DNA of 33,640 nucleotides, taken from positions 1-33,640 of the forward strand of contig SVGQ01000022.1 in the NCBI GenBank assembly GCA_015056245.1. Direction: 5' to 3'. The notes below the pieces were generated by a model that saw nothing but the letters and a program-made list of their open reading frames with translations, was not told the origin of the DNA and ran no database searches. The stretch is from Clostridiales bacterium. Lineage in GTDB: Bacteria > Bacillota > Clostridia > Christensenellales > Aristaeellaceae. This document shows, one piece after another, positions 5,555 through 16,018 of this stretch; position 1 is the first letter of the stretch, and every line of letters begins with the position of its first letter. Both the position numbers and the translations under genes were made by a program.

Positions 5555-5613
5555 ACCAACTGAACGAGAATCAATACAGACAAGCGACAACACATTACAG
5601 GAGGATGAAATCC

Positions 5614-6924
5614 ATGGAACGTCATGATGGGAGAAAAGCCTTTGAGATCCGCCCCTGCCAAATTCTGACCGATTTTGTGGAAAGCGCCTATGGCAGTTGC
5701 CTTATTTCTACCGGCAAAACCAAGGTGATCTGCACAGCCAGCGTGGAAGAAGGCGTGCCGCCTTTCCTGCGCAATTCGGGCCGTGGCTGGGTAACGGCTG
5801 AATATGCCATGCTGCCCGCCTCCACCGGCAGCCGTAAGGCCCGGGATGGCATCAAGAAGGATGGACGCAGCGTGGAGATTCAGCGGCTGATCGGTCGCTC
5901 CCTGCGTCAGGCCATCGATATGGAAAAGCTGGGCGAGCGCACGATTACGCTGGACTGTGATGTTTTGCAGGCAGATGGCGGCACCCGTACAGCCTCCATC
6001 ACCGGTGCTTTTGTGGCATTGTGTCTTGCAGTGCACAAGCTGATGGAAAACGGCCTTGTAACGGAGAACCCCATCATTTCACAGGTGGCGGCGGTCAGCG
6101 TGGGCATCGTGGAGGATACCCCGCTGCTGGATCTGTGCTATGTGGAGGACAGCCGCGCCCAGACCGATATGAATCTGGTGATGAATCACAAGGGCGAGTT
6201 TATCGAGTTGCAGGGCACTGGCGAAGGCCGCGCCTTTACCAACAAGGAACTGAACCAGTTGCTCAACGCAGGCCGTGCCGGTGTCCGCGCACTGATGCGC
6301 AAGCAGCGGGAGGCGCTGGAGCGCTGCTTCTATCTGCTGCCCAAGCCCCGGATCGCGGTTGCCAGCGGCAACGCGCACAAGCTCAAGGAACTTTCCCAGC
6401 TCTTTGCAGGTCAGTATGAGCTGATTTTCATGCGGGATGCGGGTTTTACCGGCGATCCCGAAGAAAACGGCGACACCTTTGAAGCCAATGCCATCATCAA
6501 GGCAGAGGCTGTCATGAAGGAAACTGGACTGCCCACGCTGGCGGATGACAGCGGTCTTTCCGTGGATGCGTTGGGCGGTCAGCCTGGTGTGCACAGTGCC
6601 CGCTATGCCGGTGAGCATGGCAATGACGGTGCTAACAATCAGCTGCTGCTCAAGAACATGGAAGGTGTAGAAGACCGTACCTGCCGTTTCGTCTGTGCCA
6701 TGGCGCTGGCCCTGCCCGGTAGTAAGACCCGCGTCATACGTGGTGAATGCGTAGGTGAATTGCTCCACGAACTCACTGGTGAGGGCGGTTTTGGCTACGA
6801 CCCGTTGTTCCTGTACAAAACGGGAAAAACGTTTGGTCAGATGACTGAAAAGGAGAAGAACAAAGTCAGCCACAGAGCGGTCGCAGCAGAAATGATGTAC
6901 GACGTGCTCCGGGAGGAACTGTAA
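5614..6924 (+). CDS. rph: Bifunctional ribonuclease PH / non-canonical purine NTP pyrophosphatase fusion
   Basis: This single 436-residue frame joins two enzymes. Residues 1-242 are RNase PH, the phosphorolytic 3' tRNA-trimming exonuclease, with DGRK, GRGWVTAEYAMLP, RKARDGIKKDGRSVEIQRLIGRSLR and CDVLQADGGTRTASITGA. Residues 244-436 are RdgB/HAM1, which hydrolyses ITP, XTP and dITP to monophosphates, with SGNAHKLKEL, TFEANAIIKA, ADDSGLSVDALGG and GFGYDP. Both domains look complete with a linker of a few residues. ATG at 5614 was chosen because AGGAGG (5599-5604) lies 9 bases away, whereas it touches the upstream ATG at 5605. It is first in an operon with a phosphoesterase 2 bases downstream. 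Confidence 0.92.
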   Translation: MERHDGRKAFEIRPCQILTDFVESAYGSCLISTGKTKVICTASVEEGVPPFLRNSGRGWVTAEYAMLPASTGSRKARDGIKKDGRSVEIQRLIGRSLRQAIDMEKLGERTITLDCDVLQADGGTRTASITGAFVALCLAVHKLMENGLVTENPIISQVAAVSVGIVEDTPLLDLCYVEDSRAQTDMNLVMNHKGEFIELQGTGEGRAFTNKELNQLLNAGRAGVRALMRKQREALERCFYLLPKPRIAVASGNAHKLKELSQLFAGQYELIFMRDAGFTGDPEENGDTFEANAIIKAEAVMKETGLPTLADDSGLSVDALGGQPGVHSARYAGEHGNDGANNQLLLKNMEGVEDRTCRFVCAMALALPGSKTRVIRGECVGELLHELTGEGGFGYDPLFLYKTGKTFGQMTEKEKNKVSHRAVAAEMMYDVLREEL

Positions 6925-11450: not shown

Positions 11451-11471
11451 GTAGCGAAGGGAGTGAGAGGA

Positions 11472-12158
11472 ATGCTGCTTGAGAAGATGATGTCTGTCAT
11501 CGCTCTTTCTGCGGTGTTGCTGGATGGCAGTATGGATGCAGCCATGCCTGATAAAAACATTGATGGCAAAGTGTATCTGGTCAACCGTCAGCACGCGCTC
11601 CATCAGCGTTATGTTCCTCACGACCTTCAGAATGTATTGGTTCAAGGCATTTCTCAGGATATGCGTCAGGAAGCAGCTACTGCGCTGGAATCCTTGTTTG
11701 CGGAAGCGAAAGAGGCAGGCGTGCCGTTGGCTTCTGTTTCCGGATATCGAAGCTATAGCAAGCAATCCACCATTTATCAGCGTAAGGTTGACAGCATCGG
11801 CCGAAAGGAAGCAGATCGGATTTCTGCCCGCCCGGGTACCAGTGAGCATCAGCTGGGGTTGGCAATGGATGTATCCAAGAAAGGTTCATCCCAGCTGAAC
11901 AAAGCCTTTGGTGATACCGAACACGGCAAATGGGTCAAAGAAAATGCGCATCGGTTTGGATTCATCGTCCGTTATCTGGAAGGCTACGAAGAGATCACCG
12001 GTTACGATTACGAACCGTGGCATATCCGATACGTGGGCGTAGAATACGCCACTGCGATCTATCATTCTGGCGTACCAATGGAAACCTACCTGTCCGGCCA
12101 CAGGCTGGAGGTTTATGATTATCTGATTCATCAAGTGACGAATGAGGTGCTCCCATGA
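11472..12158 (+). CDS. M15 family D-alanyl-D-alanine carboxypeptidase (VanY/DdcY type), first copy
   Basis: This 228-residue protein is of the M15B zinc peptidase type, which removes terminal D-Ala from peptidoglycan stems. The complete motif set is present: GYRSY (91-95), SEHQLGLAMD (124-133) giving zinc ligands His126 and Asp133, and EPWHIRYVG (181-189) giving catalytic Glu181 and ligand His184. A short hydrophobic N-terminus (residues 8-18) may be a weak signal or anchor. GAAGGGAG 8 bases upstream supports ATG 11472 over GTG 11463. It overlaps the next M15 gene by 4 bases (ATGA). No VanR/VanS regulators or VanH/A/X genes are nearby, so vancomycin resistance is not implied. Confidence 0.9.
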   Translation: MLLEKMMSVIALSAVLLDGSMDAAMPDKNIDGKVYLVNRQHALHQRYVPHDLQNVLVQGISQDMRQEAATALESLFAEAKEAGVPLASVSGYRSYSKQSTIYQRKVDSIGRKEADRISARPGTSEHQLGLAMDVSKKGSSQLNKAFGDTEHGKWVKENAHRFGFIVRYLEGYEEITGYDYEPWHIRYVGVEYATAIYHSGVPMETYLSGHRLEVYDYLIHQVTNEVLP

Positions 12159-13072
12159 AAAAGGCGGCTGGTTCCCTTCTTGCATTGACCCTGTGCGTGT
12201 GCATGCTTCTGTGTACTTTTGCTGAGGCCGCTTTGGCCTCTGGCGGACGTCCCAAGGTAGAGTGGACTTATCCTGTCTCCCTGACGGCGTTGCAGTCGCC
12301 CCATGTTATTCTGGTGAATGTAGACAATTTGCTGGATAAGAAGTACAAGCCTTCTCCGCTGGTCAAAGTGAAGAACGTTAAGCGCGCCACCTCTGCCACG
12401 GTGGAGCTGGAGGAGACCACTGCCAACGCTCTCAAGGAGATGTTTGACGCAGCCAAAGCGGTAACTTCCTACACCTATACGATCCTTGACAGCAAGGGCA
12501 AGGAAAAGCAGATGGTTGCCGAGTTTGAAAACGGTATGGTTCTGTACCTCAAAAGCGGCTACCGCAGCTACGGCACGCAGGCCACGATCTACGCCAACTA
12601 TCTGGACCGCAATAACGGCGTTGATGACGGCTATGTTGCAAAGCCCGGCTCCAGTGAGCATCAGAGTGGTTTTTGTGCCGACATTCTCAACAAGAAATGG
12701 GCTGGTCTTGACTACATGAACCAGCAGTTCGAAACTGAGGCAGAAGCTGTCTGGATGAAGGAAAACTGCGCTTCCTACGGTTTTATCCTCCGTTATCCCA
12801 AGGAAAAAGAAGAAGTCACCGGGATTTCCTATGAACCATGGCATTTCCGATACGTCGGCAAGGAAGTGGCGGGATATATTATGTCTCGTGGCATTTCGCT
12901 GGAAGAGTTCACTGTTGAAAGCAAGAAAGCAATGAATGAGTTCCTGGAAATGGGCGGCGACATCGAGGAACAGATGGATTACGAATTCCGCACCCAGAAT
13001 GCACCGCCGGAAAGTCACATTCTGGACGTATACGGAGAGGACGGCGACCCGGAAGTTTCGCTGTCTCTGTAA
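12155..13072 (+). CDS. M15 family D-alanyl-D-alanine carboxypeptidase, second copy, secreted
   Basis: This 305-residue protein has a clear signal peptide (KK, hydrophobic 6-22, AEA/ALA region near 26-28) and an extracytoplasmic M15 domain. Active-site residues are intact: GYRSYG (135-140), SEHQSGFCAD (167-176; His169, Asp176) and EPWHFRYVG (227-235; Glu227, His230). An insertion between the N-terminus and GYRSY makes it longer than the first copy. The C-terminal 60 residues are acidic and of unknown role. It is translationally coupled to the first M15 gene (ATGA overlap) and followed 45 bases later by parA, probably on the same transcript. Confidence 0.9.
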   Translation: MKKAAGSLLALTLCVCMLLCTFAEAALASGGRPKVEWTYPVSLTALQSPHVILVNVDNLLDKKYKPSPLVKVKNVKRATSATVELEETTANALKEMFDAAKAVTSYTYTILDSKGKEKQMVAEFENGMVLYLKSGYRSYGTQATIYANYLDRNNGVDDGYVAKPGSSEHQSGFCADILNKKWAGLDYMNQQFETEAEAVWMKENCASYGFILRYPKEKEEVTGISYEPWHFRYVGKEVAGYIMSRGISLEEFTVESKKAMNEFLEMGGDIEEQMDYEFRTQNAPPESHILDVYGEDGDPEVSLSL

Positions 13073-13117: not shown

Positions 13118-13879
13118 ATGGGTAAGATCATTGCCATTACCAACCAAAAGGGCGGCGTCGGAAAGACCACTACCGCTGTGAATCTGACTGCTTGTCTGGC
13201 TGAGGCTGGCAAAAAGGTACTGCTGGTGGATCTGGATCCTCAGGGCAACAGCACCAGTGGTTTGGGTTTGCAGGCTGGCAGTCATTCTGTTTACGAAGCA
13301 TTGATGGGGCGCACGCCTGTATCGGCTTGCCTGATCAATTCCGAAGTAAAGAATCTGCGAGTACTGCCTGCAGATATTCGCTTGGCAGGCGCAGAGCTGG
13401 AACTGGTTGATTTGGAGGACCGTGAATATCGCCTCAAAACGGTACTGAAGACGGTTGAGGAGCAGTTTGATTTCATCTTTATCGACTGTCCGCCCTCCCT
13501 GAGCCTGCTGACGGTGAACGCCCTTGCTGCTTCCCGCCGCGTGCTGATCCCCATCCAATGCGAATACTTCGCTTTGGAAGGCGTGACCAGCCTGATGAAT
13601 ACCATCAATCGCGTCAAGCAGAGTTTCAACCCGGGACTGGATATCGAGGGTATCCTGCTGACCATGCTGGATGGTCGCACCAATTTGGGTATTCAGGTTG
13701 TTGAAACCGTTAAGAAGCACTTCAAGGATAAGGTGTTCTCCGTGGCGATTCCCCGCAACGTCCGTTTGGGCGAGGCTCCCAGTCACGGTATGCCGATTCA
13801 TCTGTATGATCCCCGCAGCATTGGTGCGGACAGTTATCGCCAACTGGCCCGCGAAATTATTCGCCGTAACCAGAAATAA
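13118..13879 (+). CDS. parA: Chromosome partitioning ATPase ParA/Soj
   Basis: This 253-residue Walker-type ATPase works with ParB-parS to segregate replicated origins and, in spore formers, to regulate DnaA. The deviant Walker A KGGVGKTT (11-18) with the signature lysine, the switch [14 protein letters not shown] and the Walker B-like [14 protein letters not shown] are all present. The C-terminus [23 protein letters not shown] is typical of chromosomal Soj. It lacks the N-terminal HTH of plasmid type-Ia ParA. GTGAGG precedes the ATG. It is followed by parB after 25 bases. No gidA/gidB or origin genes are in view, so location near oriC is possible but not shown. Confidence 0.95.
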
Positions 13880-13904
13880 GGCTTCATCATAAGGAGCGTT
13901 GCCA

Positions 13905-14762
13905 ATGAAAAGACCCGGTCTTGGCAGAGGACTGGATGTTCTGCTGCCGCAAACGGACGAGATTTTGCAAACGGTCGTCCGCGATATTTCCATTGACGAG
14001 ATCGATCCCAATACGGATCAGCCGCGAAAAGAGTTCGACAAAGAGGCGCTGGAGCAACTTTCTCAGAGCATTCAGGAAGCCGGTGTGCTTTCTCCCATTC
14101 TGGTGGTTGAAAACAACGGTCGCTATCGGATCGTAGCGGGTGAACGCCGCTACCGCGCTACCCGGCTGGCAGGTTTGAGTACCATTCCCTGTATCGTACG
14201 GAATCTGACCAATGTGCAGCAGATGGAAGCCGCTCTGATTGAGAACCTGCAGCGTGAAGATCTGAATCCCATTGAAGAAGCAGCGGCTATTCGCAGCCTG
14301 ATGAACGAGTGTGATTACACGCAGGAGCAAGCTGCCAAGAGGCTGGGCAAGAGCCGCCCCGCCATTGCAAATGCTCTCCGTTTGCTCAATCTGCCTCAGG
14401 ATATTATCAATATGGTAGTCAATGGGGATTTGAGCGCAGGACATGCCCGCGTGCTGGCTGGTCTGGATTCGGAAGAACATCAGCTGAAACTGGCAAAGGA
14501 ATGCGTGGCGCAGGGCTACAGCGTTCGCAAGCTGGAGGAACTCTCCAAAGAGGAACCCAAGGCTGAAGATGCACCCAAACGTCAGTCTGCTGCCAAAGTG
14601 CTTTCTCCTGAACTGTCCGCTTTTCAGGATGCCATGCGTGAAGCACTTGGCGCGAAGACCGTGCTGGCGGGCAACGAAAAGAAGGGAAAAATCACCATTT
14701 CCTACAACAGTGCAGAAGAACTGGAGGGAATCTTTCAGGCTGTCAGCAAACTGCTGATCTAA
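13905..14762 (+). CDS. parB: Chromosome partitioning protein ParB/Spo0J
   Basis: This 285-residue CTPase clamp binds parS and spreads along DNA. The N-terminal GLGRGLDVLL, which can contact ParA, is present. It is followed by the ParB nuclease-like CTP domain (IDPNTDQPRKEF, IVAGERRYRAT near 79-89, ALIENLQREDLNPIEEA), a helix-turn-helix (YTQEQAAKRLGKSRPAIANALRLLNLP) and a C-terminal dimer domain. ATG 13905 is chosen over TTG 13899 because AAGGAG (13891-13896) lies 8 bases before it. I saw no full parS (TGTTNCACGTGNAACA-like) in the window. The gene is followed 30 bases later by an M15-like pseudoenzyme. Confidence 0.95.
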   Translation: MKRPGLGRGLDVLLPQTDEILQTVVRDISIDEIDPNTDQPRKEFDKEALEQLSQSIQEAGVLSPILVVENNGRYRIVAGERRYRATRLAGLSTIPCIVRNLTNVQQMEAALIENLQREDLNPIEEAAAIRSLMNECDYTQEQAAKRLGKSRPAIANALRLLNLPQDIINMVVNGDLSAGHARVLAGLDSEEHQLKLAKECVAQGYSVRKLEELSKEEPKAEDAPKRQSAAKVLSPELSAFQDAMREALGAKTVLAGNEKKGKITISYNSAEELEGIFQAVSKLLI

Positions 14763-14792
14763 TTTAAAGACCCAAAACGGAGGTGCTATCGC

Positions 14793-15968
14793 ATGCGCGT
14801 AAATGCAAACCGCAAGGTTCACCAGATGAAGCGTGATCCGTTCAAGACGCTGGTGAAGATTGTTGCTGCCCTGTTGGTTTTTGTGCTTGTGGGCATCGGC
14901 GTATTCTATCTGTGTTCCAAGGCTGTTGAGAACGATTTTATCCAGAAACGGAATGCAACCGTACAAAAGAATGAAGAAGATGAGATCGCCTTCAATGCCA
15001 AGATGAATGAAATGCGTGCCAGTAGCAGTAATTTCTTTGATGATGGCACAAGCGAAGAAACCGCACAGGAGTTGCAGTACTGGGAAAACACCATCGGTGA
15101 TTCTCAATGGCGCGTGGAAGACGAAGGAAAGGGTGCCCCTGAGAATACCAGCACAATCGTTGCAAGTCGCTCTGAATTGATGCTGGGCGGTTTGATGCTG
15201 GTGAATGCCTGGCATCCGCTGCCTGCAGAATTCTCAGATGAAGCGTTGGTACCGGTTGGTTCCACCAGTGGTTATAAAGTGCCTGTCAACGATAACTCTG
15301 TCAAACTGTTCCGCCCTGCTTATGACGCTTTGTTCGCCGCGTTGGAAGAAGCCGGCGGGCTTGGTCTCCAGAATTATCTGGTGCAGGAAGGCTATCGCTC
15401 CAACGAACGCCAAATGGAACTGTTTAACGACAAAATGGCAGAATTGCAGGATAAGTACAGCGGTGATATCCTGATGGAGCAAACCAAAAAGAGAGTGAAT
15501 GAACCGGGTACCAGTGAATACCAGACTGGTTTCTCTTTCAACCTTCGTCTTTATCCCAACCCCGACAGCATCGATTTTGTGGAAAGCGAACAGGGTAAAT
15601 GGCTGGTGGATAACGGTTGGAAGTACGGTATCATTTTCCGTTTCCCGACTCGTGATTTCCCCAACGCATCCTGGGAGGACAAGAGTCACAAAACCGGTGT
15701 CAGTGTTGAGCTGAATTTGTTCCGTTATGTTGGCGAGGCACACGCAGCCACCATGCGTACGTTGGGCTACTGTCTGGAAGAGTACATTGAGTTTCTGATG
15801 GAGCATCCGCATGTTTCCGTGTACGAAAACGGTGCGCTCAAGTACGAGATTTACCGGATTCCCATGACCGCCGAACCTTCTTTCAGCTTACCGGTCCCCA
15901 ATCCGGCCCGCAACTATCAGGCCAGCTTCGATAACATGGGCGGCATTGTCATGGCGTACAGTTACTGA
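14793..15968 (+). CDS. Membrane-anchored M15-like protein with all zinc ligands lost (predicted pseudoenzyme)
   Basis: This 391-residue protein has a cytoplasmic basic start, one membrane segment (about 19-41) and an extracytoplasmic domain aligning with the two M15 peptidases upstream. The fold markers are kept: EGYRSN (199-204), PGTSE (238-242), ELNLFRYVG (306-314). The metal site is not: ligand His becomes Tyr243, ligand Asp becomes Asn250 and ligand His becomes Leu309, while Glu306 is retained. Catalysis as a zinc carboxypeptidase is therefore unlikely. It may bind muropeptides or regulate the active copies. Residues 50-130 form a charged spacer with no recognised domain. GGAGGTG precedes the ATG and a terminator follows the stop. 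Confidence 0.8.
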   Translation: MRVNANRKVHQMKRDPFKTLVKIVAALLVFVLVGIGVFYLCSKAVENDFIQKRNATVQKNEEDEIAFNAKMNEMRASSSNFFDDGTSEETAQELQYWENTIGDSQWRVEDEGKGAPENTSTIVASRSELMLGGLMLVNAWHPLPAEFSDEALVPVGSTSGYKVPVNDNSVKLFRPAYDALFAALEEAGGLGLQNYLVQEGYRSNERQMELFNDKMAELQDKYSGDILMEQTKKRVNEPGTSEYQTGFSFNLRLYPNPDSIDFVESEQGKWLVDNGWKYGIIFRFPTRDFPNASWEDKSHKTGVSVELNLFRYVGEAHAATMRTLGYCLEEYIEFLMEHPHVSVYENGALKYEIYRIPMTAEPSFSLPVPNPARNYQASFDNMGGIVMAYSY

Positions 15969-15982
15969 TTTGAATAATGCTA

Positions 15983-16018
15983 CAGGCGGCGGCGTTTCGA
16001 TGCCGCCGCCTGATTTTT
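15983..16018 (+). terminator. Terminator after the M15-parAB-M15-like cluster
   Basis: A perfect 12-bp stem CAGGCGGCGGCG/TGCCGCCGCCTG with a six-base loop is followed by ATTTTTG. It separates the cluster from recQ. I could not find a clear separate promoter for recQ in the short gap. Confidence 0.8.

Follow-up and report, generated by a model that had tools for sequence, protein, structure and literature searches.

A VanY-like protein preserved without its zinc site across a family of Clostridia suggests a pseudoenzyme that binds the cell wall or its enzymes

Background

Pseudoenzymes derived from cell wall enzymes are, to our knowledge, known mainly from the LytM/M23 family, and EnvC is one of the pseudopeptidases of that family. 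Dead LytM-domain regulators, DipM among them, are already described in the accessible part of the literature. We have analyzed a candidate from a different family, a VanY-like gene located in a 33,640-nucleotide contig (SVGQ01000022.1) of a Clostridiales bacterium; this whole stretch of DNA is referred to below as the window. The open reading frame (ORF; 14793-15968, on the forward strand, as are the other features of this locus) was identified from the ORF list, its translation and Pfam; it begins with ATG and encodes 391 amino acids. It is near certain that the product is a pseudoenzyme. Its family-wide preservation with the zinc site lost and the substrate residues kept suggests, as far as comparison of sequences goes, that the protein no longer cuts but binds to the wall or to wall enzymes. 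The source assembly (GCA_015056245.1) has 3.1 Mb and, at 81% completeness, does not cover the whole genome. The five related named records are metagenome-assembled genomes, and three come from the gut of sheep or buffalo.

In the carboxypeptidase LdcB, according to the accessible part of its description (PMC4087270), the zinc ligands are His153, Asp160 and His207, and Glu204 is named as well; Arg120 forms a salt bridge with the carboxylate of the product, while Ser151 and Gln125 serve the terminal D-Ala. A 2024 review of inactive metallopeptidase homologues (PMC11266112) lists Sonic hedgehog as the only M15 case, and neither "peptidoglycan" nor "VanY" occurs in the accessible part of its text; the protein described here therefore looks like an undescribed bacterial case. 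A search of open-licence papers found none on a VanY, VanX or peptidase M15 pseudoenzyme or an inactive M15 protein.

Results and Discussion

Loss of the zinc site

The two M15 peptidases encoded upstream in the window carry the motifs SEHQLGLAMD/EPWHIRYVG and SEHQSGFCAD/EPWHFRYVG. The first motif of the pseudoenzyme is SEYQTGFSFN (residues 241-250; 15513-15542), in which Ser241 is kept and the zinc His and Asp are replaced by Tyr243 and Asn250. The second is ELNLFRYVG (residues 306-314; 15708-15734), in which Leu309 replaces the other zinc His and Asn308 the preceding Trp, with Glu306 present. Tyr243, Asn250 and Leu309 likewise align with the His, Asp and His of the solved VanYB (5zhf/6a6a). 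The original prediction that both zinc histidines and the aspartate are gone is thus borne out against the window peptidases and VanYB alike, and the window protein does not have the His, Asp, His set of an active M15B D,D-carboxypeptidase.

Orthologues were compared as 73 frames, one per genome: 60 from a search of the GTDB family, 12 from further members of the genus and one (G395) from a search of the order. These remained from 75 unique frames above 150 bits when L041, of a second zinc-less group described below, and L097, an active protein, were dropped; L031, cut by a contig end, is among the 73. Scores of the orthologous frames start at about 334 bits, and those of the other fetched frames reach at most 156; a match in G155 listed as two pieces is a single frame of 389 bits. 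His243 and Asp250 are each found once among the 73 (in L029 and L089, respectively) and His309 never, so that no row has two ligands together. Position 243 is Tyr in 57, Phe in 15 and His in 1. Position 250 varies widely (Arg 26, Asn 11, Glu 9, Thr 8, Gln 5, Ser 5, Asp 1, and others), and position 309 is mostly small or aliphatic (Leu 21, Val 15, Ile 11, Ala 11, Thr 8, Met 3, Cys 3, Asn 1). Conservation of Tyr243, Asn250 and Leu309 had been proposed as a check; only the aromatic residue at 243 is held across the set, and even within the loci L005-L022 Asn250 is found in 4 of 18 and Leu309 in 14 of 18. The catalytic Glu of ExxH, said earlier to be kept, is kept in the window protein and in only 8 of the 73 orthologues, where position 306 is otherwise Lys (21), Gln (20) or another residue. 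For comparison, L048 and L050 were left out of the 16 frames that retain the three ligands, which gave an active set of 14, and 39 positions are invariant in it (13 or 14 of 14). Six of these, 236, 243, 250, 306, 308 and 309, are kept in at most 10 of the 73 orthologues.

Distribution, phylogeny and selection

An orthologue is present in all 16 other genomes of the genus and in 60 of 120 genomes of the family, the window's own included; the zinc-less protein is therefore not a chance occurrence. The search of the order (1e-35) matched 22 of 297 genomes, 18 in the family and 4 outside it, these last below 130 bits; the four (L032, L033, L034 and L096) keep the three ligands, although L096 lacks the Glu. 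The search of the class (1e-38) matched 10 of 391 genomes. Eight of these matches lie outside the family (139-184 bits); judged by eye, they have intact motifs and the C-terminal domain, and at the N-terminus an anchor or a signal-like sequence.

In a tree that sampled 35 of the 73, the pseudoenzymes form one clade (support 100/99) with respect to the active M15 proteins. Eight zinc-less proteins of a second group form another clade (99/99), and a branch supported at 98/92 unites that group with three ligand-keeping frames; the branch leading to L049 is very long, and the Glu is missing from L048. Two separate losses of the zinc site are the simplest account of this topology. The second group is VanY-like, belongs to the same genus (G000:C34:15866-16615; L040:1540-2682; L041-L047) and has lost the ligands in 8 of 8 frames. 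In 6 of its 8 loci it is preceded by an oxidoreductase gene and a DUF1667-like one, both recognised by similarity and confirmed with Pfam for L046 only. L048 and L050, from other genera of the family, retain the three ligands.

Because synonymous sites are near saturation (pS, the proportion of synonymous differences, is 0.43-0.78 over all pairs and 0.69-0.78 for the pseudoenzyme gene), only the nonsynonymous divergence (dN) was used and no dN/dS ratios were formed. Measured against a 90% identical relative, dN is 0.064 for the pseudoenzyme and 0.095 and 0.088 for the active M15 copies; parA, parB, recQ and hflX give 0.051, 0.076, 0.065 and 0.023. The corresponding values are 0.133 versus 0.175 and 0.244 against L036, and 0.176 versus 0.199 and 0.218 against L037. 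Within the protein, dN against L035 is 0.112 for residues 1-116, 0.041 for 117-338 and 0.054 for 339-391. Together with the ligand loss common to the 73 orthologues and the predicted fold, these low values agree with the earlier proposal of a maintained pseudoenzyme on an M15 scaffold, possibly a peptidoglycan binder or a regulator. Recent decay of an enzyme gene, for which nothing speaks beyond the lost ligands themselves, can be dismissed: the loss is shared by all 73 orthologues with 0 intact sites, dN is low, and the orthologue matches listed from the genus and family searches contain no internal stop.

Fold, membrane anchor and retained substrate positions

The VanY family PF02557 matches residues 177-314 with 45.2 bits (cut-off 25), compared with 155.9 and 109.2 bits for the two upstream peptidases. 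It is the only Pfam family to match the pseudoenzyme at E 0.001, so no M23 domain of the LytM type is found. NCBIfam NF000472 (VanY-A/F/M) gives 84.3 bits, below its curated cut-off of 425. Going by the PF02557 score and the predicted M15B fold, the protein belongs to the VanY family by descent. Both observations that had been named as fatal to the original prediction failed to appear: intact ligands in orthologues of close relatives were found in 0 of 73, and the predicted fold is M15 and not an unrelated one.

The protein is predicted to consist of a single membrane helix (residues 23-41; 14859-14915; mean hydropathy 2.88), an M15B (VanY) domain without its zinc site (residues 132-338; 15186-15806; Pfam and predicted fold) and a C-terminal beta domain of the VanXYG type (residues 339-391; 15807-15965; predicted fold and alignment), also present in active relatives. 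A segment with hydropathy of 1.6 or more is found in all 72 orthologous frames that have an N-terminus. Seven Lys/Arg precede it, versus four in the 20 residues that follow, so the N-terminus is probably inside and the rest outside. The anchor had been regarded as an addition; this does not hold for the anchor or for the C-terminal domain, since active relatives in other families (L032, L125-L132) have, by eye, the C-terminal domain and, at the N-terminus, an anchor or a signal-like sequence. Next to the old active site, 8-9 residues (286-294; 15648-15674) are inserted, possibly as a lid. The initial alignment of 27 orthologues has this insertion in 26 (not in L029), and it is missing from the six active rows shown.

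The residues that hold the substrate appear to have had a different fate from the ligands. R202 and Q207 (15396-15413), at the positions of LdcB Arg120 and Gln125, are each kept in 73 of 73 orthologues, as are R283 and R311; S241 is kept in 72 and Y201 in 67. The Arg, Gln and Ser of the M15B D,D-carboxypeptidase substrate site are thus present as R202, Q207 and S241, almost without exception. The spacings R202-Q207, S241-Y243, Y243-N250 and E306-L309 equal those of R120-Q125, S151-H153, H153-D160 and E204-H207 in the accessible description of LdcB. In the eight frames of the second zinc-less group the Arg is kept in 0, the Ser in 1 and the Gln in 7; the holding residues have thus been kept in one dead lineage and mostly lost in the other.

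Proposed function and alternatives

We propose, at about even chances, that the protein is a maintained pseudo-carboxypeptidase, a membrane-tethered and non-cutting binder of stem peptides ending in D-Ala, with an extracellular action on wall enzymes. The domain outside the membrane would bind D-Ala-ended peptidoglycan stems without cutting them, the zinc pocket being filled by the aromatic residue at 243 and the mostly small or aliphatic residue at 309. Action outside is most likely because the tail before the membrane segment has 22 residues and no signalling domain. The protein would there mark or shield uncut stems, or it would bring active wall enzymes to them, for example the M15 copies of the same genome that have signal-like N-termini. 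Several points weigh against this proposal. Of the 39 positions that do not vary in the active set, 15 stay at 72 or more of 73, and by hand arithmetic the chance that all three named positions (R202, Q207 and S241) fall among these is about 0.05 (0.0006 when reckoned against all 222 positions), so that their retention is only moderately unexpected. Part of it may be structural, since the second zinc-less group has likewise largely retained Gln207. In the accessible description of LdcB, Glu204 also contacts the ligand and its counterpart is lost here, and the extra residues of the 286-294 loop may cover the site. Co-occurrence with other M15 genes tracks lineages and is not independent evidence. 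Tentatively, and with less likelihood, the protein might represent a family of bacterial M15 pseudopeptidases in which an ancestral VanY-type enzyme has turned into a receptor, tethered to the membrane and unable to cut, for D-Ala-D-Ala stem peptides, comparable to a vancomycin-like binder of the cell's own, which would gauge or guard uncut wall precursors, with a second, independent zinc-site loss in another VanY paralogue of the same genus.

A possible, though on balance doubtful, alternative is a protein-protein regulator or inactive subunit, in which a partner hydrolase would insert a loop or tail into the former groove and be turned on or off by it, after the model of the LytM-type pseudopeptidase DipM or the inactive half of a two-part peptidase. 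Such a solution is known in other metallopeptidase families (DipM; PMC11266112, accessible part), and the slower change of the M15 part relative to the N-terminal part is consistent with it. A further point in its favour is that all 60 genomes with the gene have two or more other VanY matches (median 3, minimum 2), one match per genome having been subtracted on the assumption that the pseudoenzyme was counted. However, 29 of 60 genomes without the gene also have two or more (median 1), adjacent ones in G064 for example; no constant neighbour gene marks a partner, and a regulator would not need the exact substrate residues. It is very unlikely that the protein is still an enzyme with its metal held by shifted ligands. 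His244 and Asp252, which are displaced from the lost ligands by one and two positions, occur together in 9 of the 73, and Glu is found at 250 in 9; the other 64 lack the His244-Asp252 pair, and the nine that have it carry Leu, Thr, Met or Val at 309. A displaced metal site is accordingly unsupported.

In the original prediction the position next to parAB was also taken to hint at a coupling of the wall with segregation or sporulation. A link between wall and chromosome segregation through a parAB operon is distinctly unlikely. In its favour are the 30-nucleotide gap to parB, a ribosome site of the gene's own, the hairpin behind it, and the presence of parB next to the gene in every one of the 17 genus members covered by the search as well as in three g14 genomes and in G060. 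Also in its favour, 11 orthologues of a different clade are located close to whiA; B. subtilis lacking whiA is affected in division and segregation (PMC10714963, accessible part). Yet parB adjoins only 21 of the 73 orthologues, in a single clade (84/79; 20 of them 100/100) that needs one change, and neither parB nor whiA is near 41 (flanks mostly of 1.5 kb, some cut by contig ends). The hflX-M15-M15-parA-parB block is moreover wholly conserved in all six of the sub-clade's wider loci, so the linkage may be plain synteny. The coupling is therefore weak and is not supported as an ancestral trait. For sporulation, an extremely unlikely role, the one favourable point is that the window encodes SpoIIP, which is found in all five genus members searched. 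Against it, a SpoIIP match is present in 20 of the 60 genomes that carry the gene and in 45 of the 60 that do not, and 40 genomes have the gene and no SpoIIP match; by genus the figures are 7 of 22 versus 25 of 28. These counts do not support a general role in sporulation, although incomplete genomes and shared descent weaken them, as they do the VanY counts. The pseudoenzyme is commoner in genera without a SpoIIP match, with none in 15 of its 22 genera versus 3 of the 28 others.

Genomic context

The gene is preceded by two M15 peptidases with intact zinc ligands (11463-12158 and 12155-13072, overlapping by 4 nucleotides; ORF, Pfam and alignment), parA (13118-13879) and parB (13899-14762; both ORF and Pfam). 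A Shine-Dalgarno-like GGAGGTG (14779-14785), read from the sequence, ends 7 nucleotides before the ATG. Behind the gene a terminator scan found a hairpin of 13 pairs followed by ATTTTT (15983-16012). The scan gave 3 terminator-like sites versus 3.2 in shuffles, the other two hairpins having 5 pairs each, and 3 promoter-like sites versus 2.6, both totals being at chance level.

Both parA and parB lie upstream in 18 of 18 loci L005-L022. The 11 loci with whiA in the fetched flank (L025, L076, L080, L081, L087, L090, L110, L117, L118, L120 and L122) all fall inside one clade of 13; Pfam confirmed WhiA at both loci read (L090 and L058), with MurB beside one. Two different cell-cycle loci thus host the gene, on the parB side or, in one clade, on the whiA side. 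Neither the comparison of wider loci nor the flanks of the 73 loci revealed a constant operon partner. In L051, an active relative from another family of the order, a VanY-like protein with the C-terminal domain is directly followed by a response regulator of the OmpR type and by a histidine kinase (L051:9311-12203), an arrangement that resembles vanRS. Elsewhere in the window, a single ORF (5605-6924) fuses RNase PH with a Ham1-type domain, according to Pfam.

Comparison with known systems

A VanY fold with its substrate site kept and its zinc shell removed is a natural test of a dead wall enzyme as a wall sensor, and the second, probably independent zinc loss in the same genus provides a built-in comparison. 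It is also a warning for annotation, since such a protein receives the name of D-Ala-D-Ala carboxypeptidases from Pfam and NCBIfam despite the missing metal ligands. With the VanY/VanXYG M15B D,D-carboxypeptidases (PF02557; 4f78, 5zhf, 6a6a) it shares the predicted fold over residues 117-391 with the C-terminal beta domain, the Arg of GYRS, the Gln, the Ser of SxH and, by eye, the membrane anchor seen in relatives; it differs in that its clade has lost all three zinc ligands, the catalytic Glu and the neighbouring Trp. Compared with the L,D-carboxypeptidases LdcB/DacB, as far as their accessible description goes, the positions of Arg120, Gln125 and Ser151 are kept, whereas the metal site is absent, the counterpart of Glu204 mostly lost and a C-terminal domain added. 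The Hedgehog signalling domain has zinc ligands according to the accessible part of the 2024 review, is a secreted signal of animals and is remote in sequence. DipM, in the accessible accounts, is likewise a wall-peptidase domain without catalysis in the envelope, but it belongs to another Pfam family and is a division factor that binds autolysins.
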